From Spongiactinospora sp. TRM90649 (lineage in GTDB: Bacteria > Actinomycetota > Actinomycetes > Streptosporangiales > Streptosporangiaceae), in assembly GCF_029382225.1 (NCBI RefSeq), contig NZ_JARLTC010000007.1, positions 1-64,000 of the forward strand: a stretch of 64,000 bases of DNA. Reading direction: 5' to 3'. Numbering within the stretch: the first letter of the stretch is position 1; every line of letters begins with the position of its first letter. The notes beneath the pieces are model-generated. The model did no database searches. It saw only the letters and a list, made by a program, of their open reading frames with translations, and was not told the DNA's origin. Of the stretch, positions 98 through 22,026 are shown piece after piece. Position numbers and translations under genes: made by a program.

Positions 98-1294
98 GTG
101 ACGCAGACGGAGTTCCGGCGGGCACAGACGTTGACGCTCTATTGGCACGAGGGAGAGCTGACCGCCGAGAATTACCTGGAGAGCCGTTCCACCGACGCGG
201 AGACCGACAACGCGGTGGCCGTGGACGTGCAGGCACTGGCCCTCCTGGAGCACTTCACCGACTGGTCGACGGTGGAGAAGGTGGCCGCCGGGCTCGGTGA
301 ATTCGACACGGGTTCAGTGCGCGAGGCCGTCCTTGCCCTGGCCGAAGCCGGGTTGCTGCTCGACCGGGACGGCGCGCGGCGCGAGGAGCGGTTCCTGCGG
401 GCCTGGCGCGACTGGGGCGAGGAGGCCAGATTCTTCCACTTCGGCACCCGCAACACCATCTACACCGGAGACGGCGTGGACCAGCGCCGCGCGGACGCCC
501 GGTGGATACGGCAGACCGGCGGTACGCCTCCGGCCATCTTCAAGTCGTATCCGGAAGCGCCGCGGGTCTACCTGCCGCGGATGTTCCTGCCGCTGTCGGA
601 TCAGTTCGGAGAGGTGTTGACGCGACGGCGGACGCACCGGGTGTTCACGGGCGAGCCGGTGAGCCTGGCGCAGTTGTCCATGGCGCTGTTCTACACCTTC
701 GCGCCGATGCAGCTCTACGACGCCGGAGACCTGGGCACGCTGATACTGAAGACGAGCCCCTGTGGAGGCGCCCGGCACGAGTTCGAGGGTTACGTGGCGA
801 TCCTCGACGTCGAGGACGTTCCGCCCGGCCTCTACCACTACAACGCTGAGGCGCACGCGCTGGAACTCGTCGATGCGGAATTCGACCGTGCGCGGCTGCA
901 CCGTCTGACGTTCGAATCGGAGATGTGCACGCCGTCGGCCTTCGTTTGTTTCGTGACCGCCGTGTTCGAACGGACCATGTACAAGTACCGGCATTCGCGG
1001 GCGCTGCGGGTGACGCTGCTGTCGGCCGGACATCTGGGGCAGACCTTCGTGCTGACATCGACCGCGGTCGGACTCGGCGCCTGGCAGAGCGCGGCGTTCC
1101 GCGACGAGGAAGTCGACGAGGCGCTCGGCGTGGACGGATTCTCCGAAGGGGTGCTGTACATGTTCGGCGCCGGGGTGCCCGAACTGGACGACACCGGGAT
1201 GCCCGCCGGGACCAACCGGGCCGGGCTGACCGATCCGACGCGGCTCGTCGCGGCCCACCGGGCCGTCGATCCGGCGGGTGGCGCTGACGGGTGA
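98..1294 (+). CDS. SagB-type peptide azoline dehydrogenase
   Basis: Flavin-dependent dehydrogenase of the SagB/ThcOx (nitroreductase-fold) family. In azole RiPP pathways this family oxidises azolines made by a YcaO enzyme to aromatic azoles. Residues 1-100 form a winged-helix-like N-terminal segment. The nitroreductase domain starts near residue 155, with the FMN-contacting RRRTHRVF at about 176-183 and the family motif SPCGGARH at about 220-227 (usually SPSGGARH). GTG at 98 is preferred because GGAGGA lies 7 bases upstream; an in-frame ATG at 74 has no clear ribosome site. It heads a tight plus-strand operon with an MFS exporter and an importer, and its natural partner YcaO lies at 9457-11307. 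The substrate (the peptide at 11375-11479) is inferred from neighbourhood. Confidence 0.85.
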   Translation: MTQTEFRRAQTLTLYWHEGELTAENYLESRSTDAETDNAVAVDVQALALLEHFTDWSTVEKVAAGLGEFDTGSVREAVLALAEAGLLLDRDGARREERFLRAWRDWGEEARFFHFGTRNTIYTGDGVDQRRADARWIRQTGGTPPAIFKSYPEAPRVYLPRMFLPLSDQFGEVLTRRRTHRVFTGEPVSLAQLSMALFYTFAPMQLYDAGDLGTLILKTSPCGGARHEFEGYVAILDVEDVPPGLYHYNAEAHALELVDAEFDRARLHRLTFESEMCTPSAFVCFVTAVFERTMYKYRHSRALRVTLLSAGHLGQTFVLTSTAVGLGAWQSAAFRDEEVDEALGVDGFSEGVLYMFGAGVPELDDTGMPAGTNRAGLTDPTRLVAAHRAVDPAGGADG

Positions 1295-2547
1295 GCGGCT
1301 CGGTCGCGGCGTACCGGCGGCTGTGGCGGCACCGATGGGTGCCCGCACTGCTGCTGGTGGGCGTGTGCGCCCGGGTACCCCTGCAGGCGTACGTCTTCGC
1401 GGTGCTCCTGCTGACGGTGGAGCGGACCGGCTCCTACCCGGTGGCGGGCGTGGTGACCGCCGCGACCGGCATCGCCTACGCCGTCGCAGTGCCGGTCCAC
1501 GGACGGCTCGTCGACCGGTTCGGGCAGACCTGGCCGCTGCGGATCGCGTCCGCCGTCAACGCCGTCGCCTTCACCGGCCTGCTGGTGAGCGCCGAAGTCC
1601 GGCCGACGGCGGGACTCCTCGCCGGGTGGGCCGCCGCGGTCGGGCTGTCCCTTCCCCCGGTGGCCGCCTCCGCGCGAGCGCTGTGGTCGCGGGTGATCGA
1701 CGATGAGGCGGTACGGCGTACCGCGCTGGCGGTGGACGCCATGGTGCTCGACATCGCGTTGATCATCGGGCCGTTGCTGGTCACCGCCGTCAGCGCGGCG
1801 GTAGGGCCGGGCTGGGCGGTGGGCGGCTGCGCGGTGGTGCTGCTCGGCGGCACCCTGTGGTTCAGCACGCTGCCGCCTTCACGGTCCTGGACACCGGCTC
1901 GGCGCGGGGGCGGACTGGCCGGTCCGCTACGGTCGCCGGGCATCGTCGTCCTGCTAGTCGTCTCCCTGCTCACCGGGGCACTGCTCGGGGTCGCGCGAAT
2001 CGGCTTCGTGGAGTTCGCCGACGAGTTCGCCGACGGGGCCGCGGGCGGGCTGGGGCTTGCGGCCTTCGGCGCGGGGAGTCTGCTGGGCGGACTGGCGTAC
2101 GGCGCGCGGTCCTGGCGGTGGGACGCCGCCATGCGGATGCGGGTGATCCTCGCCGGATACGCGTGCGGCGTCGGGGCACTCGCCCTGGCGCCGAACATCC
2201 CGGTGCTGGTCGCGCTGTCGCTGCCCGCCGGCTTCTTCCTCGCTCCCTTGGTCATCTGCACCTTCGAACTCATTGGCCGCTGCGCCCCTGAAGGCACCTT
2301 GACCGAGGCCTTCGCCTGGGGCATCACGGCCACCTTCGCCGGGTCGGCACTGGGCAACGTCGTCGCCGGCGCGCTGGCGGGCGCTGAGTTGTCCCCAGGC
2401 ATCGCGTTCGCCGTCGCCGCGGGCTTCGCCGTACTGGCCGCCGCCATCGTCACCGCCGGCACCAAGGCCCTCGCCGACCGGAGCACCCACGAGGCCGCCG
2501 TCCCGACGGCGAGCGGTACCGATGACATCGCTGAGAAGGGCTCCTGA
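1291..2547 (+). CDS. MFS transporter, probable peptide/metallophore exporter
   Basis: Major facilitator superfamily membrane protein of 418 residues with about 12 hydrophobic segments. The loop between the second and third segments carries the MFS motif-A-like GRLVDRFGQ (about residues 70-78). Its GTG start overlaps the stop of the SagB gene (GTGA) and its stop overlaps the next ATG (TGATG), so the genes are translationally coupled. Placed between a peptide dehydrogenase and a metallophore-type binding protein, it most likely moves the peptide product. Direction cannot be read from the sequence; YbtX-like MFS proteins of metallophore clusters are a precedent for an uptake role. Confidence 0.82.
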   Translation: MSGSVAAYRRLWRHRWVPALLLVGVCARVPLQAYVFAVLLLTVERTGSYPVAGVVTAATGIAYAVAVPVHGRLVDRFGQTWPLRIASAVNAVAFTGLLVSAEVRPTAGLLAGWAAAVGLSLPPVAASARALWSRVIDDEAVRRTALAVDAMVLDIALIIGPLLVTAVSAAVGPGWAVGGCAVVLLGGTLWFSTLPPSRSWTPARRGGGLAGPLRSPGIVVLLVVSLLTGALLGVARIGFVEFADEFADGAAGGLGLAAFGAGSLLGGLAYGARSWRWDAAMRMRVILAGYACGVGALALAPNIPVLVALSLPAGFFLAPLVICTFELIGRCAPEGTLTEAFAWGITATFAGSALGNVVAGALAGAELSPGIAFAVAAGFAVLAAAIVTAGTKALADRSTHEAAVPTASGTDDIAEKGS

Positions 2548-3608
2548 TGCACGTGCTCGCAAGCCGCTCCGCCCGCGTCGTCGCGGCGGTGGCGGCAGTT
2601 CTCCTGGCGGTCGGCTGCGCCGGTGCTTCCCGGCAGCCGGTCAGGGCCGCCGGGACACCCGGCTTCGCTTCGGTCACCGTCCGCGACTGCGGCGGAGTCG
2701 AATCGGTGATCAGCTCACCGCCCAGGCGAGCGGTGGTGCTGACGCCGAGCGTTCTGGAACTACTGCTCTGGCTCGACCTCGGCGACCGGGTGGCGGCGAC
2801 CGGGCAGCAGCCCAGGCCCGGCGCTCTGCCACCGCGGTTCGCCCAGCAGGCCGCCGCGATTCCCGCACTGTCCGGCAAGTACACGGCGGGCAGCGGCTAC
2901 CAGCCCGTGCCGCGCGAGGAACTGCTGTCCGCACAGCCCGACCTGGTCCTCGGCGGCTTCGCCAGCAACTTCGAGGCCGCGGGCGCGGTGTCCCAGGAGA
3001 AGCTGGCCGCGGACGGGATACCGTCCTACCTGGCCCTCTCCACCGCGTGCGAGTCCGCGGTCACCGCACCGCAGACCGGCTTCGAGCTGGTGTGGCGCGA
3101 TCTGGAGAACCTCGGCCGGATCTTCGGCGTGCCGGAACGGGCGGCGAAGGTCGTCGCCGGGATGAAGCAGAAGATCGCCCCGCTCCGGGCACGGGTGGAG
3201 AAGGCCGAACGGCCCACCGTGTTCCCGTTCGAGTTCGACGAGGGCACCGGTACGCCGTACGCGCCGGGCAACCGGCAGACGATCAACGCGGTCATCGAGA
3301 CCGCCGGGGGGCGCAATGTCTTCGGTGACCAGGACAAGGCGTACACCAAGGTCGGCTGGGAGGAGGTCGTGGCCCGCGACCCGGAGGTCATCCTGATCGT
3401 GATCTATGACAAGGGCGATCCCGCCGCCAACGACGTACGTTTCACCGAAGCCGAGAAGTTCCTCACCGGCAGCCAGGCGTTGCGCGGAGTGCGGGCAGTG
3501 ACCGGCAAGCGCTTCGCCCGGCTGGTCTACGAATCGGCCTCGGTGGGCGGCGTGCGCAATGCCGACGCCGTGGTCGAACTCGCCGGGCAGTTGCACCCAG
3601 CCGGATGA
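2547..3608 (+). CDS. Metallophore-type ABC substrate-binding lipoprotein (importer 1)
   Basis: Periplasmic-binding-protein-like lipoprotein of the FepB/BtuF class (helical-backbone fold), 353 residues. A signal peptide ends in the lipobox LLAVGC with acylated Cys24. The mature protein keeps the class features VRDCGG and PPRRAVVLTPS near the start and a conserved C-terminal helix region ending in VVELAGQL. It is coupled by overlap to the MFS gene before it and the FecCD permease after it (ATGA). It resembles the two other binding proteins in this window (14170-15177 and 20908-21918), all with an N/D-C-G motif shortly after the signal. The ligand is inferred to be a metal-peptide or related chelate. 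Confidence 0.87.
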   Translation: MHVLASRSARVVAAVAAVLLAVGCAGASRQPVRAAGTPGFASVTVRDCGGVESVISSPPRRAVVLTPSVLELLLWLDLGDRVAATGQQPRPGALPPRFAQQAAAIPALSGKYTAGSGYQPVPREELLSAQPDLVLGGFASNFEAAGAVSQEKLAADGIPSYLALSTACESAVTAPQTGFELVWRDLENLGRIFGVPERAAKVVAGMKQKIAPLRARVEKAERPTVFPFEFDEGTGTPYAPGNRQTINAVIETAGGRNVFGDQDKAYTKVGWEEVVARDPEVILIVIYDKGDPAANDVRFTEAEKFLTGSQALRGVRAVTGKRFARLVYESASVGGVRNADAVVELAGQLHPAG

Positions 3609-4690
3609 CGACTCTCAAGCCCGGCGCGGTGGTGACGTCGGCTTCTTCCCGTCAGCGCCGCCATACCGCGCGGGTCGCGTACTCCGTTCTGCTCTGCGTG
3701 CTGATGGCGGGCCTGGCCGTTTCGGTACTGCTCGGCACGGTGGATGTACCCGTGGGCACGGTGGGCCGCATCGTGGTCTGGCACCTGACCGGCCAGGGTG
3801 ATCCCGCCACCTGGACCGTCAGCCAGGACGCCGTGGTGTGGAACCTGCGGCTGCCGAGGGCGCTGCTGGCCGCGCTGGTCGGCGCGGGACTCGCCATATC
3901 GGGGGCCGCCACCCAGGCGCTCGTGCGCAACCCGCTGGCCGACCCCTACGTCCTGGGCCTGACCTACGGAGCGGCCGTGGGAGCGGTGGCGGTGATCATC
4001 ACCGGGGTGGCCCCGCTCGGCGGCGCGTCGACCGGCATCGCCGCCTTCCTCGGCGCGCTCGGCGCGTTCGCCGTCGTCTACACCCTCGCTCGGACGGGAG
4101 GCACCCTTGCCCCGTTGCGACTGATCCTTTCCGGCATGGCCGTCACCTACGCGCTGTCCGGCATCACCAGCTTCCTGGTGCTGCAGGCCGACGACCCCGG
4201 CACCACCCATTCGGTACTGTTCTGGCTCTTCGGCAGTCTGGCGGAGGCGAGCTGGGCCGCACTCGGACTGCCCGCCGTCGTGCTGGCCGTGACGATCGTC
4301 GCTATGTTCGCGCAGGCCAGACCGCTCAACGCGCTACTGCTCGGCGACGAGACCGCCGCCGGGCTCGGCATTCCCGCAGCCCGGCTCCGCCGGTACCTGT
4401 TCCTGCTCATCACCCTGCTCACCGGTGTGATGGTCGCGCTCGCCGGAGGGGTCGGCTTCATCGGTCTCATCGTGCCGCATGCCGCGCGACTGCTCGTGGG
4501 CAGCGACCACCGCAGGCTGCTGCCCGTGGCGGCCCTCGCCGGAGCGGGCTTCCTCGTCCTCGTGGACATCGCCGCGCGAACCGCCCTGCACCCACAGGAA
4601 CTGCCCGTCGGGATCGTCACCAGCGTCATCGGCGCTCCGCTGTTCCTCTGGCTCGTCCACACCCGCGCCCGCGACACCACCGGACTGTGA
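3605..4690 (+). CDS. FecCD-family ABC permease (importer 1)
   Basis: Inner-membrane permease of the BtuC/FecCD family, 361 residues, about 10 transmembrane segments. Diagnostic stretches are LPRALLAALVGAGLA, QALVRNPLADPYVLGL, and near the end GLIVPHAARLLVGSDHRRLLP, which forms the coupling helix contacting the ATPase. Start overlaps the stop of the binding protein gene. It forms the channel of importer 1 with the lipoprotein at 2547 and the ATPase at 4698. Confidence 0.9.
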   Translation: MTTLKPGAVVTSASSRQRRHTARVAYSVLLCVLMAGLAVSVLLGTVDVPVGTVGRIVVWHLTGQGDPATWTVSQDAVVWNLRLPRALLAALVGAGLAISGAATQALVRNPLADPYVLGLTYGAAVGAVAVIITGVAPLGGASTGIAAFLGALGAFAVVYTLARTGGTLAPLRLILSGMAVTYALSGITSFLVLQADDPGTTHSVLFWLFGSLAEASWAALGLPAVVLAVTIVAMFAQARPLNALLLGDETAAGLGIPAARLRRYLFLLITLLTGVMVALAGGVGFIGLIVPHAARLLVGSDHRRLLPVAALAGAGFLVLVDIAARTALHPQELPVGIVTSVIGAPLFLWLVHTRARDTTGL

Positions 4691-4697
4691 CCTCACG

Positions 4698-5501
4698 ATG
4701 ACCAGCCTGGACCTGCACGACGTGCACATCACCATCGGCGGGACGCCGATCGTCACCGGTGTCGATCTCAGCGTCCCGGCCGGGCGGCGAGTCGGGGTCA
4801 TCGGCCCCAACGGCAGCGGCAAGAGCACCCTGCTGCGCGCCGTGTACCGGCACCTGCCCCTCGCCAGGGGGAGCATCACCGTGGGCGGCGAGGACCTGCT
4901 GCGGCTCAAGCCACGCCGCGCCGCCCGGTTGATCGCCGTCATGCCCCAGGAGACGCGGTCCGACTTCGACGTCACCGTCTGGGAAATGGCCGCGATCGGC
5001 CGCACTCCCCACAAGCGGCCCTTCGCTGCCGACACCGCCGAGGACGTCGCCATCATCGACGACGCGCTCACCCGCGCCGGAGTCGGCCATCTCGCCCACC
5101 GTCACTTCGCCACCCTTTCCGGCGGCGAGAAACAGCGGGTCCTGCTCGCCCGTGCGCTGGCCCAGCAAGCATCCCTGCTCGTGCTGGACGAGCCCACCAA
5201 CCACCTCGACGTTCGTCACCAGTTCGAGCTGCTCGACCTGGTGACGGCCGCCGGCACGACGGTCCTCGCCGCCCTGCACGATCTCAACCTGGCCGCCGCC
5301 TACTGCGACCACCTTTACGTCCTGCGCGCGGGACGCGTAGTGGCGCACGGGCCACCGGACGAGGTCCTCACACCGCGACTCGTCGGCGAGGTGTTCGGTG
5401 TCGACGCCCACATCACCACCACCCCGGACACCGGCGCCCCCCACCTCATCCTCCGCCCTCGGGGCGCCACCGACGCGCCCCGAGGCCCGGAGGTCGAATG
5501 A
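4698..5501 (+). CDS. Metallophore-type ABC ATPase (importer 1)
   Basis: ATP-binding subunit of the FepC/BtuD type, 267 residues. Walker A GPNGSGKST, Q-loop MPQETRSDFD, signature LSGGEKQ, Walker B LLVLDEPTNHLD and H-loop ALHDLNLAA are all intact. ATG at 4698 was chosen because it starts 7 bases after the permease stop; the open frame extends upstream only inside the permease gene. The region after the Q-loop (TVWEMAAIGRTPHK) is shared with the ATPase at 12276-13091, showing close paralogy. Last gene of the plus operon, followed 18 bases later by the end of the convergent sigma factor gene. Confidence 0.9.
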   Translation: MTSLDLHDVHITIGGTPIVTGVDLSVPAGRRVGVIGPNGSGKSTLLRAVYRHLPLARGSITVGGEDLLRLKPRRAARLIAVMPQETRSDFDVTVWEMAAIGRTPHKRPFAADTAEDVAIIDDALTRAGVGHLAHRHFATLSGGEKQRVLLARALAQQASLLVLDEPTNHLDVRHQFELLDLVTAAGTTVLAALHDLNLAAAYCDHLYVLRAGRVVAHGPPDEVLTPRLVGEVFGVDAHITTTPDTGAPHLILRPRGATDAPRGPEVE

Positions 5502-5519
5502 GCGACCTGCCGACACCGC

Positions 5520-7103: not shown

Positions 7104-8417
7104 TCAGACCAGCGCGAGCTCGCGGCGTAGCCGGAGGCGGGCACGCAGGAACAGCACGACGGTCAGCACGACGGAGAACGCGATCCACGCCACGTACAGT
7201 CCGGGCAGTCCCAGGCCCGCGTGGACGCCGAGGAACCAGCCCAGCGGGATGAGCACCAGGTAGTCGCCCGTGACGTTGGCGACCATCACGGACCGGGTGT
7301 CGCCGGTGGCGCGCAGGAAGCAGCCGTAGGCCATGGCGTACACCATCGGGGCCATGCTCACCAGCGCGAGCGGCACCGCCTGCCAGGCGAGTCCGGCCGT
7401 GTGCGCGTCCCCAGTGACCAGTGACAGCAACGGGCGGCCCAGCACCAGCGCGCAACCGGCCGGCACCGCGTACACGATCAGCAGGAGCCGGACGCCGGTG
7501 CGCCGCCACCGCTCGGCCCGCGCCGGGTCGCGTGCGCCGAGTTCGTGCCCGGCCCGGATGGTGATGGCGGCTGCGGCGGAGTTCATCACGGTGAAGACGA
7601 TGAGCAGCAGGTTGTCCACGATCCGGTAGGCGGCCAGTTCTGGGGTGCCCATCCGGGCCGCGAAGCCCGCGAGCAGCGCCTCGTTGAGGTAGCCGACGCC
7701 CATGGCGCTCATCTCCGGCCAGCCGATGCGCCACAGACCTCGCATCACTCCGGCGGCGTCGGCCTCCTCTCGCGTCTCGCGGGGGAGCCGGGCGCGGGCG
7801 TAGAGCAGCAGAAAGACGGTCCCGACGGCGGTGGCGGCGAGTGTGGCCACGGCCGCGCCCAGGACCCCGAGGCCGGCGGTGAAGATCAGCAGCAGGCCGA
7901 GCGGCAGGTTCACCACGTTGACCAGCACCGCGTTGTACATGGTCGCGCGGGTCACGCCGACGCCGGCGCAGGCGCTCTGCAGGGTGAAGGACGCGGCGGC
8001 GAACGGCACCGCGAACGCGAGCACGCGCAGGTAACCCGTGCCGGGCCCGATGAGTTCGGCCGAGGCCCCCAGCACGGTCAGCGCCGGTTCGGCGATCAGA
8101 TACAGAATCGCGCCGATGGCGACTCCGGCGCCGGCCGAGGCGATCAGACCGACCCGTACCACGCGGGCCACCGCCCCGGGCGTCCCCGCTCCGTGCCCCC
8201 GGGCGACCATGATCTGGACGGCGGTCGCCCAGCCCCGCACGATCACCAGGGCGATCAGATAGATGGGGGCGGCGAGCGCGAAGGCGCCCAGCGCCTGGGT
8301 GGACGACCGGGCCAGCAGGACCGTGTCCACGATGTTGACGATGATCTGCGTCAGCCCGGCCACCAGCAGCGGCATGGCCAGCGCCCAAAGACGCCTGACG
8401 GACGGCTCTTCGCTCAC
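7104..8417 (-). CDS. MATE-family efflux transporter
   Basis: Multidrug and toxin extrusion family transporter of 437 residues and 12 predicted membrane segments in two homologous halves. It begins VRRLWALAMPLLVAGLTQ, typical of MATE helix 1. The GTG start at 8417 overlaps the stop of the LLM gene upstream (GTGA). The open frame runs on upstream in frame as an artefact of the LLM gene. As last gene of the minus-strand RiPP operon it is a good candidate to export the mature peptide; drug export is the alternative. Confidence 0.85.
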   Translation of the reverse strand: MSEEPSVRRLWALAMPLLVAGLTQIIVNIVDTVLLARSSTQALGAFALAAPIYLIALVIVRGWATAVQIMVARGHGAGTPGAVARVVRVGLIASAGAGVAIGAILYLIAEPALTVLGASAELIGPGTGYLRVLAFAVPFAAASFTLQSACAGVGVTRATMYNAVLVNVVNLPLGLLLIFTAGLGVLGAAVATLAATAVGTVFLLLYARARLPRETREEADAAGVMRGLWRIGWPEMSAMGVGYLNEALLAGFAARMGTPELAAYRIVDNLLLIVFTVMNSAAAAITIRAGHELGARDPARAERWRRTGVRLLLIVYAVPAGCALVLGRPLLSLVTGDAHTAGLAWQAVPLALVSMAPMVYAMAYGCFLRATGDTRSVMVANVTGDYLVLIPLGWFLGVHAGLGLPGLYVAWIAFSVVLTVVLFLRARLRLRRELALV

Positions 8418-9436: not shown

Positions 9437-9456
9437 GCACTTTCCTCTCGTAGTGG

Positions 9457-11530: not shown

Positions 11531-11547
11531 TTGCGAACACCTTGCAA
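11531..11547. promoter_or_regulatory. Nur-like box upstream of the precursor gene
   Basis: TTGCGA-ACACC-TTGCAA matches the Streptomyces Nur (nickel-responsive Fur-family repressor) consensus tTGCaa-N5-ttGCAA, with complete outer TTGC...GCAA arms. It lies 52 bases before the precursor ATG, in the 104-bp gap after the FhuF-like gene. On the minus strand a plausible promoter precedes it (TTGTAT, 18 bases, TAAAGT), placing the box just past the -10, where a repressor would block transcription. The core TCGCAACTGCA (minus strand) recurs at 22005-22015. Consensus recalled from published work; no scan was run. Confidence 0.65.
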
Positions 11548-11583
11548 TAACTTTAAGCACAGGTCCGCGGCCGATACAAGAAA

Positions 11584-13091: not shown

Positions 13092-14173
13092 CGCGATCGC
13101 CTCCGCATGAGCCACAGGAAGAAGGGGCCGCCGACCAGCGCGGTGATGATCCCGACCGGAATCTCCTCCGGGGAGATCAGCGTCCGGGCGAACAGGTCGG
13201 CCACGATGAGGAACGCCGCCCCGAGCAGCGCCGTGGCGGGCAGCGCCCGCCGATGGTCGGCGCCGATCAGCAGCCGCACTACATGCGGCATGATCAGCCC
13301 GACGAACCCGATCGACCCGCTGACCGCGACGATGGCGCCGATCATGACCGCCACCAGCACGAACAGCGCCGCCCGGAGGCGGTGCACGTCCAGCCCCAGC
13401 GCGGCGGCGGCCTCCTCCCCGGCCAGGAACAGGTTCAGGGGACGGGAGACGCCGAGCAGTACGGCGGTGCCCAGCAGCACGGCCGCCGCGGGCACCCACA
13501 CCACCTGCCAGGTGGTGCCCGCCAGGCCGCCGAGCATCCAGCGCAGCGCCGACTGCGTCTTGTGCGGGTCACTGGAGGTCACCACCAGGAACCCGGCCAC
13601 CGCCGAGAGCACTTCGGCCATCGCGACTCCGGCCAGCACCAGCCGTACGGTGGTCATCCGCCCGCCCGACCTGGCCAGGAAGTAGACCGCCACCAGCGCG
13701 GCCAGCGCCCCGGCGAACGCCGCCACCGGCAGCGAGAACGCCCCGAACAGGGTCAGGCCGAACACCACCACGCTCACCGCGCCGACGGTGGCGCCCGACG
13801 ACACGCCGAGCAGCATCGGATCGGCCAGCGGGTTGCGGACCAGGGCCTGCAGCGCCATCCCGCACACCGAAAGCCCCGCCCCGATGACCGCGCACAGCAG
13901 TACGCGCGGCAGTCGTACGTCCATGACGATGGTCTCCCGCACGGGCGACCAGACCGGCTCGGCCAGCGCGGGATGGATCCGATGCGCCAGGATGCCCCAC
14001 ACCTGCTCCGGCGGCAGGGCGATCGACCCGGCCGCGATGCCCGCCGTGGCCGCCACGCCTAGCAGTACCACCAGCAGCCCGAGCAGCAGTGGGTAGGGTG
14101 CCCCCGGCCGCCGCGACGGGAGCCGGGCCGCCGGGGCATCGACGGCCCGGGCGTCCTCGGTCAGCTCCTTCAC
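13088..14173 (-). CDS. FecCD-family ABC permease (importer 2)
   Basis: BtuC/FecCD-type permease of 361 residues and about 10 membrane segments. Family motifs are LPRVLLCAVIGAGLS, QALVRNPLADPMLLGVSSGA and GLIMPHVVRLLIGADHRRALP. The GTG at 14173 overlaps the stop of the binding protein gene and fits the length of the other two permeases. Upstream extension of the frame lies inside the binding protein gene and is rejected. Confidence 0.9.
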   Translation of the reverse strand: MKELTEDARAVDAPAARLPSRRPGAPYPLLLGLLVVLLGVAATAGIAAGSIALPPEQVWGILAHRIHPALAEPVWSPVRETIVMDVRLPRVLLCAVIGAGLSVCGMALQALVRNPLADPMLLGVSSGATVGAVSVVVFGLTLFGAFSLPVAAFAGALAALVAVYFLARSGGRMTTVRLVLAGVAMAEVLSAVAGFLVVTSSDPHKTQSALRWMLGGLAGTTWQVVWVPAAAVLLGTAVLLGVSRPLNLFLAGEEAAAALGLDVHRLRAALFVLVAVMIGAIVAVSGSIGFVGLIMPHVVRLLIGADHRRALPATALLGAAFLIVADLFARTLISPEEIPVGIITALVGGPFFLWLMRRRSR

Positions 14174-15177
14174 TTGAACCGGTCGGCGTGAATCTGGCGG
14201 GCCAGCGCCTCGACCGCCGACGGCGTCCGTACCCCGAGCACCACCGACGACAGCGGCAGCACCGCGAACCGCTGCTTCTTGATCGCCGGAACATCGGCGA
14301 GCGCCGGGTTGGACAGCAGGAACCGCTTCTTGTCGGCGACCGGCTGATCCCCGTAGTCGTAGATGACGATCCATTCCGGAGCGCGCTCGGCGACCTGCTC
14401 GAACGACACGTCGCCCCAGACCTTGCCCAGATCGGCGAACAGGTTCTCGGCGCCGGCCAGCTTGACGACCTCGTTGCCGACGCCCCGGCCACCGGCCGTG
14501 AAGGCGGTCTTGTCACCGCTGTCGTAGACGAACAGTTTGACCGGGGCGACCCCGGCCAGCTTCTCCTCGACCCCGTCGAGAGTGGCGTGCAGCGTCGCGA
14601 GGAGGGGGTCGGCGCGCTCGGGAACGCCAAAGATCTTGGCGAGGTTGCGGATCTCCTGGTCGATCATGGCCATCGTCACCGGACCGTCGGCGCACTCCTC
14701 GATGTTGAGGTAGGTGCGGATACCGGCTTTGCTCAGGACGTCGCGGCCGCGCCCCTCCTTCTCGTCGAAGGTGCTGGAGAAACCGCCGTAGACGAAGTCC
14801 GGCTCTTCGGCCAGCAACGCCTCATAGGCCGGGTACTTCGGCGACAGCACCTTCACGCCCTCGTAGGCGGCCTGATACTCGGGGAGGATCTTGTCGTCGA
14901 GGTAGCCGGTGCCGACCATGGACTCTTCCAGCCCGAGCGCCAGCAGCACCTCGGTGGCGTGCTGGTTGAGCGACACCGCGCGCCGGGGCGGGCGCTCGTA
15001 GGTGGTCTTGACGCCGCAGTTGTCGAGGGTGACCGGGAAACCCGCGGGCGCGGAGGCGGAAGCCGGGGCGGCCTGCCTGACGTCGGCGGGCGCGCCCCCG
15101 CACCCGGCGAGCAGCGCGCCGGCGATGAGGGCGGACAGCGGGGCGAGCAGCAGGAACGAAGGACGTCTGCCCGTCAT
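14170..15177 (-). CDS. Metallophore-type ABC substrate-binding lipoprotein (importer 2)
   Basis: FepB/BtuF-class lipoprotein of 335 residues. Signal peptide with lipobox LLAGC, acylated Cys26. The mature part carries LDNCGVKT and PPRRAVSLNQHATEVLLALGL, close to the binding protein at 2547. The ATG at 15177 has GAGAGGAA 6 bases upstream. It is the first gene after the cobalamin riboswitch. Its substrate could therefore be cobalamin, a cobalt chelate or the cluster's own metallated peptide. Sequence similarity to the other two binding proteins in this RiPP cluster favours a chelate of the cluster's product. Confidence 0.88.
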   Translation of the reverse strand: MTGRRPSFLLLAPLSALIAGALLAGCGGAPADVRQAAPASASAPAGFPVTLDNCGVKTTYERPPRRAVSLNQHATEVLLALGLEESMVGTGYLDDKILPEYQAAYEGVKVLSPKYPAYEALLAEEPDFVYGGFSSTFDEKEGRGRDVLSKAGIRTYLNIEECADGPVTMAMIDQEIRNLAKIFGVPERADPLLATLHATLDGVEEKLAGVAPVKLFVYDSGDKTAFTAGGRGVGNEVVKLAGAENLFADLGKVWGDVSFEQVAERAPEWIVIYDYGDQPVADKKRFLLSNPALADVPAIKKQRFAVLPLSSVVLGVRTPSAVEALARQIHADRFK

Positions 15178-15340
15178 GGAAGGTTCCTCTCACGGAATCT
15201 GCACGACGGGGCGGTAACTCCGGGATCCGGGAAACGGCATGGCGCAGACGTCGGCGCGGTGCCCGCGCGGCATCGCCGATCGGCGCGTCGGCCATGTCGG
15301 CCCGCTCCTCTCCGGGGAGATCCGCCCCAGTTCATCGAGG

Positions 15341-15491
15341 AGGCGACCGCGTGAGTCTCCTGGCTCTCGGGTCGAAGCTCGCCCCCGCCTTCCCACCCCG
15401 AGTGGGGCAGTGGCTCGGTGGGGGTCCGCTCGCCGATCACAGTGGCGGGACCGCGCCGGATTCACACCGGCTTCCTCGTCCGCGCTCGCCT
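15341..15491 (-). promoter_or_regulatory. Cobalamin riboswitch
   Basis: Read on the minus strand, this leader shows the B12-aptamer signatures in order: a GGAAGCCGGTG segment, GAATCCGGCGCGGTCCCGCC followed by ACTGTGA, the GGGAAGGCG element, and the B12 box AGCCAGGAGAC (15355-15365). A closing P1 helix can be formed by AGGCGA at 15486-15491 and TCGCCT at 15341-15346. It lies about 160 bases before the lipoprotein gene of importer 2, in the 376-bp gap after the ABC exporter pair. Expected effect: adenosylcobalamin or cobalamin lowers expression of 15177-12276 and possibly of all genes down to 7104. The remaining leader (15178-15340) would be the expression platform; it has GC-rich inverted repeats but I could not assign an exact switch. 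Confidence 0.92.
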
Positions 15492-15553
15492 TTCCGTCAT
15501 CTTTTCATGAACCCGATCGATTCCCTAGGCGTCTGCGTGCGATGAGTCCTGGA

Positions 15554-17320
15554 TCACGGGCCGGTCAGTTGCCCGGCCAGGAGCCTGGCGTAGGCCCCGT
15601 CACGGGACACCAGATCGGCATGAGCGCCGGACTCCACGACACGGCCGTCGCCCAGGACGACGATGAGGTCGGCCGTGCGGATGGTGGACAGCCGATGGGC
15701 GATGATCAGGGTCGTCCGGTCGTGGCGGGCGGCGGTCATGGCGGCAGCGACCTCCTGCTCGCTTTCCACGTCGAGGTTGGAGACGGCCTCGTCCATGATG
15801 AGGATGGGCGCGTCCTTGAGCAGGGCGCGGGCGATGGCGATGCGCTGCCGCTGGCCGCCCGACAACCGAGCGCCCAGTTCGCCGGGAACGGTGTCGTAAC
15901 CGTCGGGAAGTCCGCGGATGAACTCGTGGGCGTACGCGGCGCGGGCGGCGGCCTCGACGTCCGCGTCGGTGGCGTCGGGACGGCCGAGCCGGATGTTGTC
16001 ACGCAGGGAGATGTTGAACAGGTAGACGTCCTGCGGGACGAGCGTGATCAGGCGGCGCAGTTCTTCCTGGGGGAAGTCGCGGACGTCGTGGCCGCCGACG
16101 CTGATCGAGCCCGAGGTGACGTCCCACAGGCGCATGAGCAGGTTGGCGCAGGTGGACTTGCCCGCACCGGAGTGGCCGACCAGGGCGGCGGTCTGGGCGG
16201 GGGCGACGGTGAAGCCGACGCCGCTGATCGCCTCGGGCAGATCGGGGGCGTACCGGAACCGGACGTCCTGGAAACGGACTCGCGGTTCGATGGGGCCGGG
16301 AGGGGCGGTGGTGACCCGGTCGGTGACCGGGGCGGGAGTGATGAGCACGGTCATGATCCGGTCGCCGGCGGCGACGACCAGGTTGAGATCGCGAGCGACG
16401 TCGGTGACCGCGGTGACAGGGGCGAAGGTCGTCGCGGCCAGCACGACGGCGACGGGGAAGAGTTCCGGTCTCAGGGCACCAGCCGACACCAGGAGGGCGG
16501 CCGTCACCAACACGGCCAGCAGTCCCAGCGTGGTGGCCGCGTTGGTGACGGCGTGCTCGATCCCGGAGCGACGTCCGTGCGCGAGCCGGGCCCGCAGCAG
16601 TCGGCCGTCCTGGTCGAGCACTCGGTCGAGCTGGCGGTCACCGGCCCCTGAGGTGAGCAGTTCACGCAGTCCCTGCAGGGTGTCGACGACTTCGGCGTTG
16701 AGCTCTCCCAGCTCGGCCCGCAGCGCCGCGCCCTGGGCCGCCGCCCGCCGGCGCAGCCACGCGGGTAGCAGGGCGAGCAGGATCAGGGCGGGTGCCAGGG
16801 CGAGAGCCAGCGCCGGATGGAACACCGCCAGGGCGGTGAGCGCGGCGGCCGGGACGGTCGCCGCGCTGACGAGCGGGCTGAGCGTGTGCGCGAACCAGAG
16901 CTCCAGTTGTTCGACGTCGGAGACGGCCGCGGCCCCAAGGTCGCCGGAGCGGCGTTGCAGCAGGTAACCGGGGGCGAGCCGGTCGAAGGCGGCGTAGACG
17001 CGATTGCGCACGTCGGCCAGCACGCGGAAGGCCGCGACATGCGCGAGGTAGGACTCCAGCCACGGGGTGAACGCCAGCAGCGGCAGCAGCAGGCCGAGCA
17101 CCACCAGGCCGCCGCGCAGTTCCCCGGCGGCGCCACCGGTGATCGCACGGCTGACCACCCAGGCCCCGACGCCCGCCGAGGCCAGGACGACCAGGTGATG
17201 GGCGATGCCGCTGACGATCGCGCCCAGCAGCAGCGGCCGGTGCGGACCGAGCAGGGCCAGCAACGGCCGGAAGCGGGCGCCGGGAAGACGACGTGCGGAG
17301 GTGGCGGTCAGGGCGGTCAT
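15554..17320 (-). CDS. Exporter-fold ABC transporter subunit B (half of heterodimer)
   Basis: 588-residue protein with an N-terminal six-helix type-I exporter (CydC-like) membrane domain and a C-terminal ATPase. Walker A GHSGAGKST, signature LSGGQRQ, Walker B ILIMDEAVSNLD and H-loop AHRLS are present. Its start overlaps the stop of the partner subunit (ATGA). The pair belongs to the operon of importer 3 under the Nur-like boxes. It may export the peptide, or act as an exporter-fold importer, as do YbtPQ for yersiniabactin and IrtAB for mycobactin. CydDC-type thiol export is another reading. Confidence 0.87.
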   Translation of the reverse strand: MTALTATSARRLPGARFRPLLALLGPHRPLLLGAIVSGIAHHLVVLASAGVGAWVVSRAITGGAAGELRGGLVVLGLLLPLLAFTPWLESYLAHVAAFRVLADVRNRVYAAFDRLAPGYLLQRRSGDLGAAAVSDVEQLELWFAHTLSPLVSAATVPAAALTALAVFHPALALALAPALILLALLPAWLRRRAAAQGAALRAELGELNAEVVDTLQGLRELLTSGAGDRQLDRVLDQDGRLLRARLAHGRRSGIEHAVTNAATTLGLLAVLVTAALLVSAGALRPELFPVAVVLAATTFAPVTAVTDVARDLNLVVAAGDRIMTVLITPAPVTDRVTTAPPGPIEPRVRFQDVRFRYAPDLPEAISGVGFTVAPAQTAALVGHSGAGKSTCANLLMRLWDVTSGSISVGGHDVRDFPQEELRRLITLVPQDVYLFNISLRDNIRLGRPDATDADVEAAARAAYAHEFIRGLPDGYDTVPGELGARLSGGQRQRIAIARALLKDAPILIMDEAVSNLDVESEQEVAAAMTAARHDRTTLIIAHRLSTIRTADLIVVLGDGRVVESGAHADLVSRDGAYARLLAGQLTGP

Positions 17321-19035
17321 CGGGCGGCTCCGTCCTGGGCGGCGACCAGACGGGCGTAGGCCCCCCGGCCCGCCAGCAGCTCCTCCGGCGGCCCGGCCTC
17401 CTCGATCCGTCCGTCCGCCATGACGATGACGCGGTCGGCGGTACGGACGGTGGACAGCCGATGGGCGATCATGAGGGTGGTCCGGCCGCCCGTGAGAGTG
17501 TCGAGGGCGTGCTGGATCGCGGCCTCGTTGGCGGCGTCGACACTGGAGGTGGCTTCGTCCAGCACGAGCACGGGCGCGTCCTTGAGCAGGGCGCGGGCGA
17601 TCGCGATGCGCTGGCGTTCGCCCCCGGACAGCTTCAGGCCGCGCTCACCGACCATGGTGTCGTAGCCGTCGGGCAGGGCTTCGATGAACTCGTGAGCCCG
17701 CGCGGCGCGCGCGGCGGCCTCAAGCTCGTCGGCCGAGGCTCCGGGCCGGGCGAGGGACAGATTGCGGCGCACGCTGCCGTGAAAGAGGTACGTGTCCTGG
17801 GAGACAACGGCGACCATGGCGCGCAGCCGGTCGAGCGGCAGGTCGCGGACGTCCACCCCGTTGATCCTGATGTGACCCGACTCGGGATCGAAGAAGCGCA
17901 GGAGGACGGAGGCGACCGTGGTCTTGCCCGCTCCCGAGCGGCCGACCAGGGCCACGCGTTCCCCCGGAGCGACGTCGAGAGAGAAGCCGTGCAGCGCGGG
18001 ACGGTCGCGGTCTCGGTAGGTCAAATGCACGTTCTCGAACGTCACGGACGGCGGGCCGGTCACCCCGGCGGACGCGGTGCCCTGTTCCTGGGCGGGTGCG
18101 TCGAGCAGCTTGAAGACGGCCTTCAGCGACGGCACCGCGTTGTAACTGGAGTGGTAGGCGGCCTCCAGGTCCTTCAGCGGCCGGAAACTCTCGGCGGTCA
18201 GCAGCAGGATGATCAGTAGCTCGGTTACGGTGAGTTCGCCGGCGGCCAGCCGCAGCGCGCCCACGCCGAGCGCGACCGCCGTGCCGAGGCCGACCACGAA
18301 GGCCACACCGCCGACGTACAGGATGACGACGGCCATCAACCGGATGGAGTCACGGCAGAACGCCTGGGCCAGGCGAGCCAGCTCGGCCCCGCGCCGCCCG
18401 CTGGCGTTGAACGACTTGAGCGTGGCCATGCCCTGCAGCGCGTCGAGGTTCTCCGCGTACATGCCCTTGTACCCGCGAAACCAGGCCGCGTTCCGGTCGG
18501 CCAGCACGCGATCGGACAGCAGCGGCAGGATCGGCAGCAGTAGGGAGCAGGCCAGCACGACCCCGCCGACCAGCGGATCCAAGGTGAACAGATACGCGGT
18601 GACCGCGACGGCCCCCAGCACGGCGGCGATCGCCTGCGGCAGGAACCTGCCGACGTAGGCGTCCACGGTCTCGATGCCGTCCACCAGAGTCGTCTGCGCC
18701 GAACCGGTCCGCCCGCGCTGGGCGTGCGCGGGTCCGAGCCGAAGCAGGTGAGAGGTCACCCGCCGGCGCAGCTCCGCCTTGACGGCGCCGGAGACCCGTA
18801 GCGAGGCGACCTCCCGGACGGCCAGCGCGGCACTGCGCACCAATTGCAGGGCGACGACTCCGGCGACCGGCCACACGATCGACTCCGGCCCCTCGCCGGC
18901 GAAGACGCGCGACAGGGCGTGCGCGACCAGTACCCCCTGGCCGACATACGTGCCGGTGATGGAAAGCAGCAGGGCCACGAGCGCGGCCAGGCGCAGCCGG
19001 ATCGACGGCGATGTCGCCAGCAGTCGGAAGATCAC
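17317..19035 (-). CDS. Exporter-fold ABC transporter subunit A (half of heterodimer)
   Basis: 572-residue membrane-ATPase half-transporter. Walker A GRSGAGKTT, signature LSGGERQ, Walker B VLVLDEATSSVD, AHRLS all intact. The GTG start at 19035 overlaps the stop of the importer 3 ATPase, and its own stop overlaps the start of its partner at 17320. Both halves keep full catalytic motifs, so both ATP sites may be active. No SID-like extra domain (as in IrtA) was seen at the N-terminus. Confidence 0.87.
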   Translation of the reverse strand: MIFRLLATSPSIRLRLAALVALLLSITGTYVGQGVLVAHALSRVFAGEGPESIVWPVAGVVALQLVRSAALAVREVASLRVSGAVKAELRRRVTSHLLRLGPAHAQRGRTGSAQTTLVDGIETVDAYVGRFLPQAIAAVLGAVAVTAYLFTLDPLVGGVVLACSLLLPILPLLSDRVLADRNAAWFRGYKGMYAENLDALQGMATLKSFNASGRRGAELARLAQAFCRDSIRLMAVVILYVGGVAFVVGLGTAVALGVGALRLAAGELTVTELLIILLLTAESFRPLKDLEAAYHSSYNAVPSLKAVFKLLDAPAQEQGTASAGVTGPPSVTFENVHLTYRDRDRPALHGFSLDVAPGERVALVGRSGAGKTTVASVLLRFFDPESGHIRINGVDVRDLPLDRLRAMVAVVSQDTYLFHGSVRRNLSLARPGASADELEAAARAARAHEFIEALPDGYDTMVGERGLKLSGGERQRIAIARALLKDAPVLVLDEATSSVDAANEAAIQHALDTLTGGRTTLMIAHRLSTVRTADRVIVMADGRIEEAGPPEELLAGRGAYARLVAAQDGAAR

Positions 19036-19787
19036 CGCTCCTCCTTGAGCCGTTCGAAGACGAGCTGGGTGCGGCGCACCGCGCGCACGCCGTACACCTG
19101 GGAGATCACTTCGGGGACGAGCACCCGGTCGGGCGGGCCGCCGACGAGGATGCGGCCCGCCTCCATGACGTAGAGGCGGTCGCAGAAGGCGGCGGCCTGG
19201 TTGAGGTCGTGCAGTGCGGCCAGGGTGGCGATGCCCAGCTCGCGCACCAGGTGCAGCAGTTCGAGCTGGTGGCGGATGTCCAGGTGGGAGGTGGGTTCGT
19301 CGAGCAGGAGCAGGCGGGTCCGCTGGGCGAGCGCGCGGGCGATGAGCGCCCGCTGCTTCTCACCGCCGGACAGGGTGGCGTAGACGCGTTCCTCGGCACC
19401 GGTCAGGCCGACCCGCTCCAGCGCCCCTGCGCACAGTTCCTCATCTGTGGCGTCGATGCCGTCCAGCGCGCTCTTGTACGGCGAGCGCCCCATGAGCACG
19501 ACCTCCCATACCGTGAAGTCCAGCTCGGCGGGAGCCTCCTGCGCGACCACGGCGGTACGTCTGGCCGACTCGCGCCAGGACAGGCGGTGCACGTCGTCGC
19601 CGTCCACGGCGATCAGCCCGGCCGAGGGCCGCAGCGCCCGGTATACGGCCCGCAACAGCGTCGACTTGCCGCAGCCGTTCGGGCCGACCAACCCCACGAA
19701 CTCGCCATCGTCCACCGCGAGGTCCGCCCGGTTCACGATCGGACGGCCGTTCACCTCGACGGAGACGCCCCCCAGGTCGAGTCTCAT
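19032..19787 (-). CDS. Metallophore-type ABC ATPase (importer 3)
   Basis: 251-residue FepC/BtuD-type ATPase. Walker A GPNGCGKST, signature LSGGEKQ, Walker B LLLLDEPTSHLD and ALHDLNQAA. The start at ATG 19787 overlaps the permease stop (ATGA); the upstream frame extension lies within the permease gene. It differs from ATPases 1 and 2 in the post-Q-loop segment (TVWEVVLMGRSPYK), so importer 3 is the more divergent paralogue. Confidence 0.9.
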   Translation of the reverse strand: MRLDLGGVSVEVNGRPIVNRADLAVDDGEFVGLVGPNGCGKSTLLRAVYRALRPSAGLIAVDGDDVHRLSWRESARRTAVVAQEAPAELDFTVWEVVLMGRSPYKSALDGIDATDEELCAGALERVGLTGAEERVYATLSGGEKQRALIARALAQRTRLLLLDEPTSHLDIRHQLELLHLVRELGIATLAALHDLNQAAAFCDRLYVMEAGRILVGGPPDRVLVPEVISQVYGVRAVRRTQLVFERLKEER

Positions 19788-20911
19788 CCCACCGTCACCG
19801 CCCGATCGGGGGAACGGCGGCGCAGCAACCACAGGAAGAACGGCACCCCGACCACCGCGGTCACGATGCTGAGCGCCAGCTCCTGCGGGGCGTTCACCGT
19901 CCGGGCGGCGACATCGACCAGTTGCAGGAACGCCGCGCCCAGCAGCGCCGTCACCGGCAGCACCCGCCGGTGGTCGGCACCGACCAGCAGCCGGGCGGCG
20001 TGCGGGACGATCAGACCGACGAACGCGATCGCCCCGCTGGTGGCCACCAGCACCCCCACGAGTAGCGACGTCAGTACGAACAGGGACAGCCGGAAACGGT
20101 GCACGTGCACACCGAGCGAGATCGCAGTCTCCTCACCGGCGGCGAGCGCGTTGAGCGGCCGATGCTGGAGCAGCAGGTAGACCAGCCCGGCGGCCAGGAC
20201 GGCCGCGGGCAGCGGCAACATCTCCCAGCGGGCACCGCCGAGGCTGCCCATCAGCCAGAACAGCACCTGCTGGGCGGCCCGCCCGCTCTGCGCCTGCTGC
20301 AACACGAAGCTGTAGACCGCCTGGAACAGGTACGCCAACGCCACCCCGGCCAGCACCAGCCGCGCGGGAGTGATCCGGCCCGACCGCTGCGCGAGCGCGT
20401 AGACCAGGGCCAGCGCGATCAGCGATCCGGCGAAGGCCGCGGCCGACAGCGAAAGCCCGCCCAGCGCCGACGCGCCCAGCACCAGCACGAGGACCGCGCC
20501 CAGCGATGCGCCGGAGGAGACTCCGAGCAGGAACGGATCGGCCAGGGGATTGCGCACCAGTGCCTGCAGCACCGCCCCGACCAACGCCAGCCCGGCCCCC
20601 ACCAGCAGCGCCAGCAACGCCCGGGGCAGCCGGAAGTCCCACACGATCTGCTCCTGGACCGGCGTCCAGGTCTGGACGACCGCGCCCGGCAACAGCCGGT
20701 CGGCGACGATGCCCCACGCCTGCGGCAGGGCCACGTACACCGCCCCGACGCTTACCGCGAGCCAAGTCGAAACCACCATGGCGGCGGCGAGCGCGACGAC
20801 GAGTGACAGGAACCGGCCGCCGCCGCTGCGGGTCCTGCCACGGCCCGGCCGCTTGGCCACCGTTGCCCGATGCGGCTGCTCACGCGGCACCGGATCGCGA
20901 TGGGTGGTCAC
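19784..20911 (-). CDS. FecCD-family ABC permease (importer 3)
   Basis: 375-residue FecCD/BtuC permease. Motifs LPRALLALLVGAGLA, QALVRNPLADPFLLGVSSGA and GLIVPHAARLLVGADHRRVLP. An extra basic N-terminal tail of about 30 residues precedes the first helix. Start overlaps the binding protein stop; its stop overlaps the ATPase start. Five genes from 21918 to 15554 are joined by 4-base overlaps, so they almost certainly form one transcript. Confidence 0.9.
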   Translation of the reverse strand: MTTHRDPVPREQPHRATVAKRPGRGRTRSGGGRFLSLVVALAAAMVVSTWLAVSVGAVYVALPQAWGIVADRLLPGAVVQTWTPVQEQIVWDFRLPRALLALLVGAGLALVGAVLQALVRNPLADPFLLGVSSGASLGAVLVLVLGASALGGLSLSAAAFAGSLIALALVYALAQRSGRITPARLVLAGVALAYLFQAVYSFVLQQAQSGRAAQQVLFWLMGSLGGARWEMLPLPAAVLAAGLVYLLLQHRPLNALAAGEETAISLGVHVHRFRLSLFVLTSLLVGVLVATSGAIAFVGLIVPHAARLLVGADHRRVLPVTALLGAAFLQLVDVAARTVNAPQELALSIVTAVVGVPFFLWLLRRRSPDRAVTVG

Positions 20912-21918
20912 CGGGCGAACGCGCCGGGATGCAGAAAGCGGGCGATATCTGTGATGGCCAGGATGTTCCGGTAGCCGGGATGCTGGGCCGCTGCGGGAAC
21001 CGCGAGAAAGCGCTTCTTCCCGGCCGCCGGGCTGTCCTTGGCGATGGCGAAGATGTCGGCGGCCTTGGCCGGGGCGCCGGGCAGCTTCTCACCCTGCAGT
21101 TCGGCGTACTCACTGACCAGGAGGGCATCGGGGCGCGCGGCGGCGATCTTCTCGGCGCTGACCTCGGTGTAGTCGGCTCTGACGTCGGCCAGGACGTTCA
21201 CGCCCCCGGCCAGTGTGATCATCTGGTTCGTCAGCCCGGCACCGCCGTATGCGTTGACCGGCCCCTTGCCGCCGTCGGTGGCCAGCACCTTGACCGCAGG
21301 CTCGTCGCGCACGCGCTCACGGACGTCCGCGAGCTGCTCGCGCAGGTCATCGATCAACTTGCCGGCCCGGTCGGGGACACCGAAGATCGCGCCCAGGTTG
21401 CGCAGGTCGGTGAAGGTGTCCTCGATGGTGAACGTGAGTGTCTCCTCTGGAGTGCACCAGCCGCCCATGATGTAGACGGGCGTACCCGCGGCGTCGAGCT
21501 CCTCTACAGAGGCATGGCCCCCACCGGCGTCGAAGCTGTTCATCGTGTTGTCCAGCACGAAGTCGGCGGACTGCGCGAGCATGACCTCTTTCTGCGGCAG
21601 CATGATCGAGTCGGAGATCTCCGGGATCGTGTCGTACGGCTCCCGCTGGCCTGGCAGGAACGCGCTCTCGGCGAAGTTGGTGCGCCCTGCGACGTGATCG
21701 CCCAGCCCGAGAGCGAGCAGGGTCTCCAACGCGGGCTGGTACCCCGTCACGACCTTGGCGGGCGGCGCGTCGAACGTGAGCGTTCTCCCGCAGTTGGTGA
21801 CCGAGACGGGGAAACCGGCGCGCGGGGCCACAGTGGGCTCGGCCCGCTGAACGGCGGCCCCGGTCGAACAGGCCGTCGCCATCAGGATGGCCGCCACCGC
21901 TGCGACCCCGTATCGCAT
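20908..21918 (-). CDS. Metallophore-type ABC substrate-binding lipoprotein (importer 3)
   Basis: FepB/BtuF-class lipoprotein. ATG 21918 gives a short signal MRYGVAAVAAILMATAC with lipobox Cys17 and a 336-residue product. Longer in-frame starts exist up to 22026, but that stretch contains the Nur-like boxes, so it is better read as the promoter region. The mature protein has VTNCGRT and the PPAKVVTGYQPALETLLALGLGD segment seen in the other two paralogues. First gene of the five-gene importer 3/exporter operon. Confidence 0.86.
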   Translation of the reverse strand: MRYGVAAVAAILMATACSTGAAVQRAEPTVAPRAGFPVSVTNCGRTLTFDAPPAKVVTGYQPALETLLALGLGDHVAGRTNFAESAFLPGQREPYDTIPEISDSIMLPQKEVMLAQSADFVLDNTMNSFDAGGGHASVEELDAAGTPVYIMGGWCTPEETLTFTIEDTFTDLRNLGAIFGVPDRAGKLIDDLREQLADVRERVRDEPAVKVLATDGGKGPVNAYGGAGLTNQMITLAGGVNVLADVRADYTEVSAEKIAAARPDALLVSEYAELQGEKLPGAPAKAADIFAIAKDSPAAGKKRFLAVPAAAQHPGYRNILAITDIARFLHPGAFAR

Positions 21919-21992
21919 GATCCGGCCTGTACCCGCATGTCCGGCACGCCCGCCCTTGGGACGACGGACGTGAACGCATTCGGTCGATAAAC

Positions 21993-22026
21993 TTGCAAGG
22001 TCATTGCAGTTGCGACTTGATTGCAT
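21993..22026. promoter_or_regulatory. Two abutting Nur-like boxes upstream of importer 3 operon
   Basis: Box 1 (21993-22009) is TTGCAA-GGTCA-TTGCAG and box 2 (22010-22026) is TTGCGA-CTTGA-TTGCAT. Both fit tTGCaa-N5-ttGCAA with at most two changed edge bases, and they sit exactly 17 bp apart. They lie 75 bases before the chosen start of the binding protein. The right half-site of box 1 with the left of box 2 contains the same 11 bases (TGCAGTTGCGA) found at 11526-11536 near the precursor gene. Two boxes suggest cooperative repressor binding and tighter control than at the precursor. Confidence 0.68.

Follow-up and report, generated by a model that had tools for sequence, protein, structure and literature searches.

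A conserved actinomycete RiPP-type gene cluster under predicted nickel control, with a likely role in metal acquisition

Gene content of the locus

The window analysed here comprises 64,000 nucleotides of Spongiactinospora sp. TRM90649 (contig NZ_JARLTC010000007.1) and runs from base 1 of a contig of 364 kb in a 9.1-Mb actinomycete genome. Near its start lies what is, judged from its genes, a YcaO-dependent cluster for a ribosomally synthesised and post-translationally modified peptide (RiPP), in which a SagD-type YcaO gene adjoins a conserved gene for a short precursor. The order on the minus strand is cobalamin riboswitch, substrate-binding protein (SBP2), FecCD permease and ATPase (importer 2), FhuF-like protein, precursor, YcaO, luciferase-like monooxygenase (LLM)-class enzyme and multidrug and toxic compound extrusion (MATE) exporter, with a box for the nickel regulator Nur at the precursor promoter:

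11375..11479, minus strand: precursor peptide gene, 34 amino acids, MAHPGFAEPEDTQCLKSHTPAVDSPFEWREEEDE, core HTPAVDSPFEW, strong ribosome-binding site AAGGAGG
11531..11547, minus strand: Nur box TTGCAAGGTGTTCGCAA, 0 mismatches to TTGCRA-N5-TYGCAA, 2 nt downstream of the -10 element
11550..11579, minus strand: candidate sigma70-like precursor promoter (consensus match only), -35 TTGTAT, 18 nt, -10 TAAAGT
9457..11307, minus strand: putative YcaO cyclodehydratase with fused E1-like N-terminal domain (TIGR03604, 239.2 bits, cut-off 219.25)
8414..9436, minus strand: LLM-class F420-dependent-type oxidoreductase (TIGR03559, 339.7 bits, cut-off 335)
7104..8413, minus strand: MATE exporter (TIGR00797, 193.8 bits)
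11584..12273, minus strand: FhuF-like 2Fe-2S protein (PF11575, C-terminal 21 residues only)
12276..13073, minus strand: importer 2 ATPase (PF00005)
13088..14170, minus strand: importer 2 FecCD permease (PF01032)
14170..15177, minus strand: importer 2 binding protein SBP2 (PF01497)
15332..15532, minus strand: cobalamin riboswitch of the importer 2 operon (RF00174, 98.6 bits, cut-off 31.5)

Conservation of the cluster in relatives

The window YcaO has 56 protein-database matches, its own record included, from Streptosporangium, Sphaerisporangium, Actinomadura, Nonomuraea, Streptomyces and others, the Streptomyces members of the cluster family being known from protein matches only. Within its order, matches were found in 41 of 345 genomes (E value 1e-60), at 57 places including the window. 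Of the other 56 places, 40 were examined with their surroundings; 18 of these and the window make up the 19 loci termed Type I (L041-L058 plus the window; our own label for loci where YcaO is followed by LLM), and 22 are more distant. The LLM gene stands after YcaO in all 19 Type I loci, FhuF lies ahead of the precursor or YcaO in 11, MATE is present in 12 and at least one importer 3 gene in 10, and the order FhuF-precursor-YcaO-LLM-MATE recurs among them. A class-wide sample gave no YcaO match at E 1e-100 in 393 genomes besides G000, and the cluster therefore seems sparse outside its order; a plasmid search returned distant YcaOs only, all 20 records being under 60% identity.

Importer 3 lies upstream of the riboswitch operon on the minus strand, in the order SBP3, FecCD, ATPase, followed by a CydDC-like pair of ATP-binding cassette (ABC) transporter genes:

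15554..19035, minus strand: ABC transporter pair, two genes, CydDC-like (Pfam ABC domains)
19032..21918 (start 21918 inferred), minus strand: importer 3, i.e. ATPase, FecCD and binding protein SBP3 (Pfam/NCBIfam)
21993..22026, minus strand: pair of directly adjoining Nur boxes ahead of importer 3, each with 1 mismatch (shuffle p = 0.005 at a matrix score of 18.5)

The preliminary description of this DNA had made its case depend on importer and YcaO genes occurring together across genomes, and they do: the importer 3 FecCD is found in 11 of 19 Type I genomes as against 25 of 326 others (Fisher p = 1.5e-7, uncorrected for kinship), and SBP2 homologues (E 1e-75; 63 of 345 genomes) in 16 of 19 as against 47 of 326. 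The ABC gene at 17317-19035, beside importer 3, reaches 406.8 bits with the CydD model TIGR02857 (cut-off 435), a thiol reductant exporter model, and is an unusual neighbour for a metallophore importer.

A third set of genes starts at the contig edge and is read on the plus strand, in the order SagB, major facilitator superfamily (MFS) transporter, SBP1, FecCD, ATPase:

74..5501, plus strand: SagB-MFS-importer 1 unit at the contig edge
74 (or 98)-1294, plus strand: SagB-type nitroreductase (Pfam/NCBIfam)
1291-2547, plus strand: MFS transporter (Pfam/NCBIfam)
plus strand: importer 1, SBP and FecCD by Pfam, ATPase frame 4698-5501

All the parts named in the preliminary description (precursor, YcaO, SagB, LLM enzyme, FhuF-type protein, three importers, exporters, riboswitch and Nur-like boxes) are thus present by Pfam, NCBIfam and Rfam matches and motif scan. 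However, its inclusion of SagB, MFS and importer 1 in one locus had to be given up, as these lie outside the conserved unit: no SagB occurs around the YcaO of any of the 18 other Type I loci (stretches of 13-20 kb). The unit was rejected as a core part and is probably a system of its own, truncated where the contig ends; since the window starts at contig base 1, nothing upstream of SagB is visible. It may be the end of a second RiPP or metallophore cluster. A gene for an extracytoplasmic function (ECF)-type sigma factor (5520-6107), without a counterpart in the other Type I loci, stands between the two units, and a WD40-repeat protein of 1612 residues is encoded at 23025-27863.

That an ordinary azole bacteriocin merely happens to lie beside unrelated siderophore and B12 importers is very improbable. 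The lack of conservation of the SagB unit would fit such a chance neighbourhood, as would the finding of each importer family alone elsewhere; the recurrent order FhuF-precursor-YcaO-LLM-MATE largely contradicts it, and a conserved box and a precursor core that is invariant in 18 loci, with few heterocyclisable residues, speak against it too.

Precursor peptide and modifying enzymes

The RiPP assignment had likewise been staked on a conserved precursor. This is borne out, as the window and 17 of the 18 other Type I loci carry an intact precursor gene (18 of 19 in all), the exception being L050, which retains the gene's end only. Thirteen positions are invariant among the 18 aligned precursors, in the elements MAH..F.E and HTPAVD..F.W. 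In the HTPAVD codons the first and second positions are constant and the third vary, which indicates that the precursor protein is under selection. A profile search gave 24 precursors, some from genomes already covered, and HTPAVD is intact in 13 of the 17 inspected.

The predicted model of the window YcaO (mean pLDDT, a per-residue confidence score, 85.3) finds its best folds in LynD, MusD and TruD over its full length, and our best guess is therefore a cyclodehydratase with an E1-like partner domain. The likeness to these fused cyclodehydratases lies in the predicted fold of both domains, whereas identity is 16-18% and many members of the clade are too short for the N-terminal domain. The LLM enzyme belongs to an F420-type family (TIGR03559). 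The peptide offers few residues for heterocyclisation: its single Cys is replaced by Gly in 6 of 18 precursors (L043, L044, L045, L048, L049, L055), and a nearly invariant Thr lies between His and Pro. A thiazole at Cys was accordingly rejected as the key modification. The earlier label of an azole RiPP is weakened as well, with Cys so often Gly, LLM as the only conserved dehydrogenase and one relative having Met for the core Thr. An oxazoline at Thr and a streptamidine-like N-terminal amidine are both candidate modifications. Calculated [M+H]+ values for the window peptide, with its true ends assumed, are 836.43 (KSHTPAVD - H2O) and 1482.70 (KSHTPAVDSPFEW - H2O), oxidation taking off another 2.016.

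Nur boxes and predicted nickel control

The Nur box of Streptomyces is described as tTGCaa-N5-ttGCAA (PMC3919588). In order to avoid circularity, a matrix was built from sodF promoters only (20 boxes from 18 promoters; 7 of 25 sodF loci, with unassigned start, were left out). With this matrix 17 of 18 precursor promoters score at least 15.5 (shuffle p <=0.010), and the window box scores 23.9, the best of 300 shuffles giving 16.4. The box starts 1-7 nt past the predicted -10 element, except that it lies about one 17-bp repeat further down in L043 and overlaps the -10 in L056-L058. The whole window contains four matches at <=2 mismatches against 2.65 expected, i.e. no more than chance, and the case for the boxes thus rests on their position and conservation rather than on their count.

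Positive controls agree with this, since a Nur box is found in 18 of 18 assignable sodF promoters and just upstream of nikA in all 10 nikA loci found (eight perfect, two with one mismatch), a likeness to the Nur regulon of Streptomyces (PMC3919588). Literature searches gave no case of a peptide cluster targeted by Nur. Eight genomes hold 23 perfect boxes, with 3 in a reversed control; five are at the peptide promoter, four at nikA, three at sodF, one at a FhuF/SBP2 operon and ten elsewhere (five in G322, and some within long frames). The sodF gene adjoins the peptide cluster in 5 of 19 genomes (G293, G164, G173, G039 and G038, with L043, L052, L054, L057 and L058), and nikAB also lies beside it in L058. 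The window's genome encodes four Fur-family proteins, one of which, L203, has its best PDB match in 3eyy, which we take to be S. coelicolor Nur (181.7 bits as against 75.6 for the next; the comparison covers L203 and one of the other three).

Box scores upstream of importer 3 are 18.5 in the window, 23.7 in L043 and a weaker 14.6 in L044. In the other subclade, where importer 3 directly follows LLM, no such box was found in five loci scored (L051, L053, L054 and L056-L058, counted as six), and a one-mismatch box between the two genes occurs in L052 only. A box at SBP2 promoters was rejected as a general feature: it occurs in single loci (L045, L048, L055, L081), the counts being 4 of 16 Type I genomes and 2 of 22 others (p = 0.22). 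Among the four, the box of L053 in fact belongs to the precursor, and among the two, G005 has a YcaO remnant.

An iron or zinc siderophore, which the FecCD importers and the FhuF-type protein might suggest, is hardly credible. With consensus letters taken from general knowledge, no iron box (<=5 mismatches) and no Zur box (<=3) was found anywhere in the window, and none at the 18 precursor promoters save one 4-mismatch Zur-like site in L046; Nur boxes stand there instead. Iron or Zur control was rejected on these grounds, in agreement with the earlier observation that the promoters of the locus lack an iron box of the IdeR/DmdR type. The nickel control proposed at the same time has also held up. 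Indeed, boxes in sodF and nikA promoters, a close Nur homologue and sodF and nikAB neighbours make nickel better supported now than it was then, and membership of the precursor cluster in a predicted Nur regulon is strongly supported by these motifs.

Cobalamin riboswitch and cobalt

Twelve of the 19 Type I loci contain a cobalamin riboswitch or have one immediately adjacent, and for a further locus, L043, one lies some 8 kb off. In 11 of the 19 it lies upstream on the same strand and leads into importer 2 genes, FhuF or both, with the peptide genes after them; in L053 it is divergent from the precursor. All 15 further SBP2 loci scanned also have a riboswitch just upstream, and 10 of them come from genomes that lack an intact Type I cluster, which suggests that the riboswitch is a property of importer 2 and not of the peptide. 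One of the SBP2 loci, L186 (4540-10397), has riboswitch, SBP2, FecCD, ATPase, FhuF and MATE with no YcaO adjoining, and is a possible user of peptide made by others. In L192 (8816-9094), from a genome without an intact cluster, what remains of a Type I YcaO lies behind FhuF.

It could be argued that the system serves acquisition of cobalt or vitamin B12 (cobamide), the peptide binding cobalt or a corrinoid and nickel control being secondary. The riboswitches leading into peptide genes, and weak matches of SBP2 and SBP3 to BtuF, far under the cut-off, would be in line with this. However, the riboswitch operon also occurs without an intact peptide cluster, the peptide has its own Nur promoter and 6 of 7 loci of the importer 3 subclade lack a cobalamin riboswitch, and we regard this explanation as quite unlikely. 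Of the nickel/cobalt target originally put forward, the nickel part is upheld by the Nur boxes while the cobalt part is weakened. Cobalt as cargo is a hint and not a finding; as importer 2 is under a B12 riboswitch, it is a plausible second cargo.

Relation to streptamidine and methanobactin

The closest described system is that of streptamidine, the product of the ami cluster of Streptomyces albidoflavus J1074 (PMC8442711). The two share a YcaO RiPP with a short precursor poor in Ser, Thr and Cys, four FecBCDE-like importer genes, two ABC transporter genes and a similar gene order, and the E1-like partner AmiB may be compared to the E1-like domain found here. The F..E and HTP..F.W elements of streptamidine-type ALV precursors also resemble the window precursor. 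On the other hand, the ALV motif (A or B) that marks the streptamidine network occurs in none of the 18 aligned precursors, LLM takes the place of the McbC-like AmiE, no AmiC-type hydrolase was seen here, and MATE and FhuF set the cluster apart from ami.

In a YcaO tree (a quick tree with midpoint root, built without the true AmiD) Type I and selected database proteins, from Streptomyces and others, split from the ALV-type clade with a branch support (SH-aLRT, an approximate likelihood ratio test) of 95. The neighbouring clade holds double-YcaO loci with FecCD importers, four of which (L059, L060, L090, L095) have precursors like ALV motif B that end in NALVH[TNS]PF.W, resembling HTPAVD..F.W. 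At <=1 mismatch, no Nur box is present in any of the 22 more distant YcaO loci, and six that were scanned, L059 and L090 included, have no cobalamin riboswitch. This pattern points to a sister family whose metal control is its own. The four double-YcaO ALV clusters, being without a Nur box, presumably answer to some other regulator.

Methanobactin, the copper-binding ribosomal peptide chelator, is exported and re-imported, and shows that ribosomal metallophores exist for copper. The likeness to it lies in that idea, the differences in YcaO chemistry and the nickel regulator. No MbnB/MbnC-type family was seen among the Pfam and NCBIfam matches of the scanned cluster genes (Mbn features being taken from general knowledge), and the match to the MbnM MATE model is weak (37.7 bits against a cut-off of 285). 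Methanobactin, initially named as the nearest concept, thus yields that place to the streptamidine family, which is nearer by sister YcaO clade, gene order and precursor elements.

Several observations weigh against a metallophore. Streptamidine bound none of seven metals, Ni and Co included, and metal starvation brought out no phenotype in its YcaO mutant (PMC8442711). Among the relatives, importers 2 and 3 are also present without the peptide cluster, and a natural deletion in L050 (10250-10400) has removed most of the precursor along with the Nur box, leaving YcaO, LLM, MATE and importer 2. Four of the profile-search precursors have a broken HTPAVD (P0074, HM; P0079, AVE; P0083, AT; P0084, HCT), and no protease or RiPP recognition element (RRE) gene was identified in the cluster. 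As to nickel, the precursor promoter of L045 has no Nur box (p = 0.81), nikA was not found at E 1e-70 in 9 of 19 cluster genomes, and, of 7 genomes inspected for importer 3 loci outside the cluster, 2 (L150, L153) have a suitably placed box.

A rival explanation is a streptamidine-like amidine RiPP with a non-metal role, e.g. as a signal or as an effector of the ribosome or of development, in which Nur would tie production to nickel status and the importers would take up the peptide or serve its biosynthesis. The sister YcaO clade, the motif-B-like precursors, the lack of metal binding by streptamidine and the abolition of its production by deletion of the FecBCDE genes (PMC8442711) all favour it. 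However, the Nur box so regular in Type I promoters is absent from all 22 distant loci, including the four with ALV precursors, and the sodF and nik neighbours, as well as LLM in place of AmiE, do not fit; we hold this explanation to be unlikely.

Proposed function

A metallophore function is, from gene content and regulatory motifs, likely. Specifically, we think it fairly probable that this conserved actinomycete cluster makes a secreted peptide metallophore that is induced by nickel shortage and re-imported in nickel-bound form. Nickel-loaded Nur would repress the precursor promoter, so that the peptide is made upon starvation. YcaO would then close a backbone ring near HTPAVD with ATP, giving the oxazoline or the amidine, and the LLM enzyme may adjust the redox state of the peptide, whose flanks would be trimmed, before export by MATE, by a protease that is not seen among the cluster genes. 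Ni(II) could be bound by His, ring nitrogen and Asp, and a freed N-terminal [KR]-[SA]-His might add to this, such a sequence at a free N-terminus being a nickel motif of the amino-terminal copper and nickel (ATCUN) type in peptide chemistry. The complex would be returned to the cell by SBP2 or SBP3 and the FecCD permeases, and the FhuF-like 2Fe-2S protein may help to release the metal.

Full-text searches of the literature, limited to papers under Creative Commons (CC) licences, gave no ribosomal metallophore for nickel or cobalt and no description of this system, which the supplements of PMC8442711 could list as an unnamed family. The wider reading, to which we give an even chance, is that the peptide is the first ribosomally made nickelophore, Nur-repressed, secreted for nickel (and cobalt) and served by two alternative FecCD uptake routes, and that by extension the whole streptamidine-like family may consist of ribosomal metallophores whose metals are set by different repressors. 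The locus gives a simple prediction, i.e. that nickel shuts the peptide off through Nur, and a short invariant core is available for synthesis. The streptamidine authors suspected metal import and left the role of the peptide open, this link being proposed but not shown (PMC8442711). The ribosomal-metallophore reading would, if true, answer what streptamidine does, and offers a possible function for a large family of streptamidine-like clusters.

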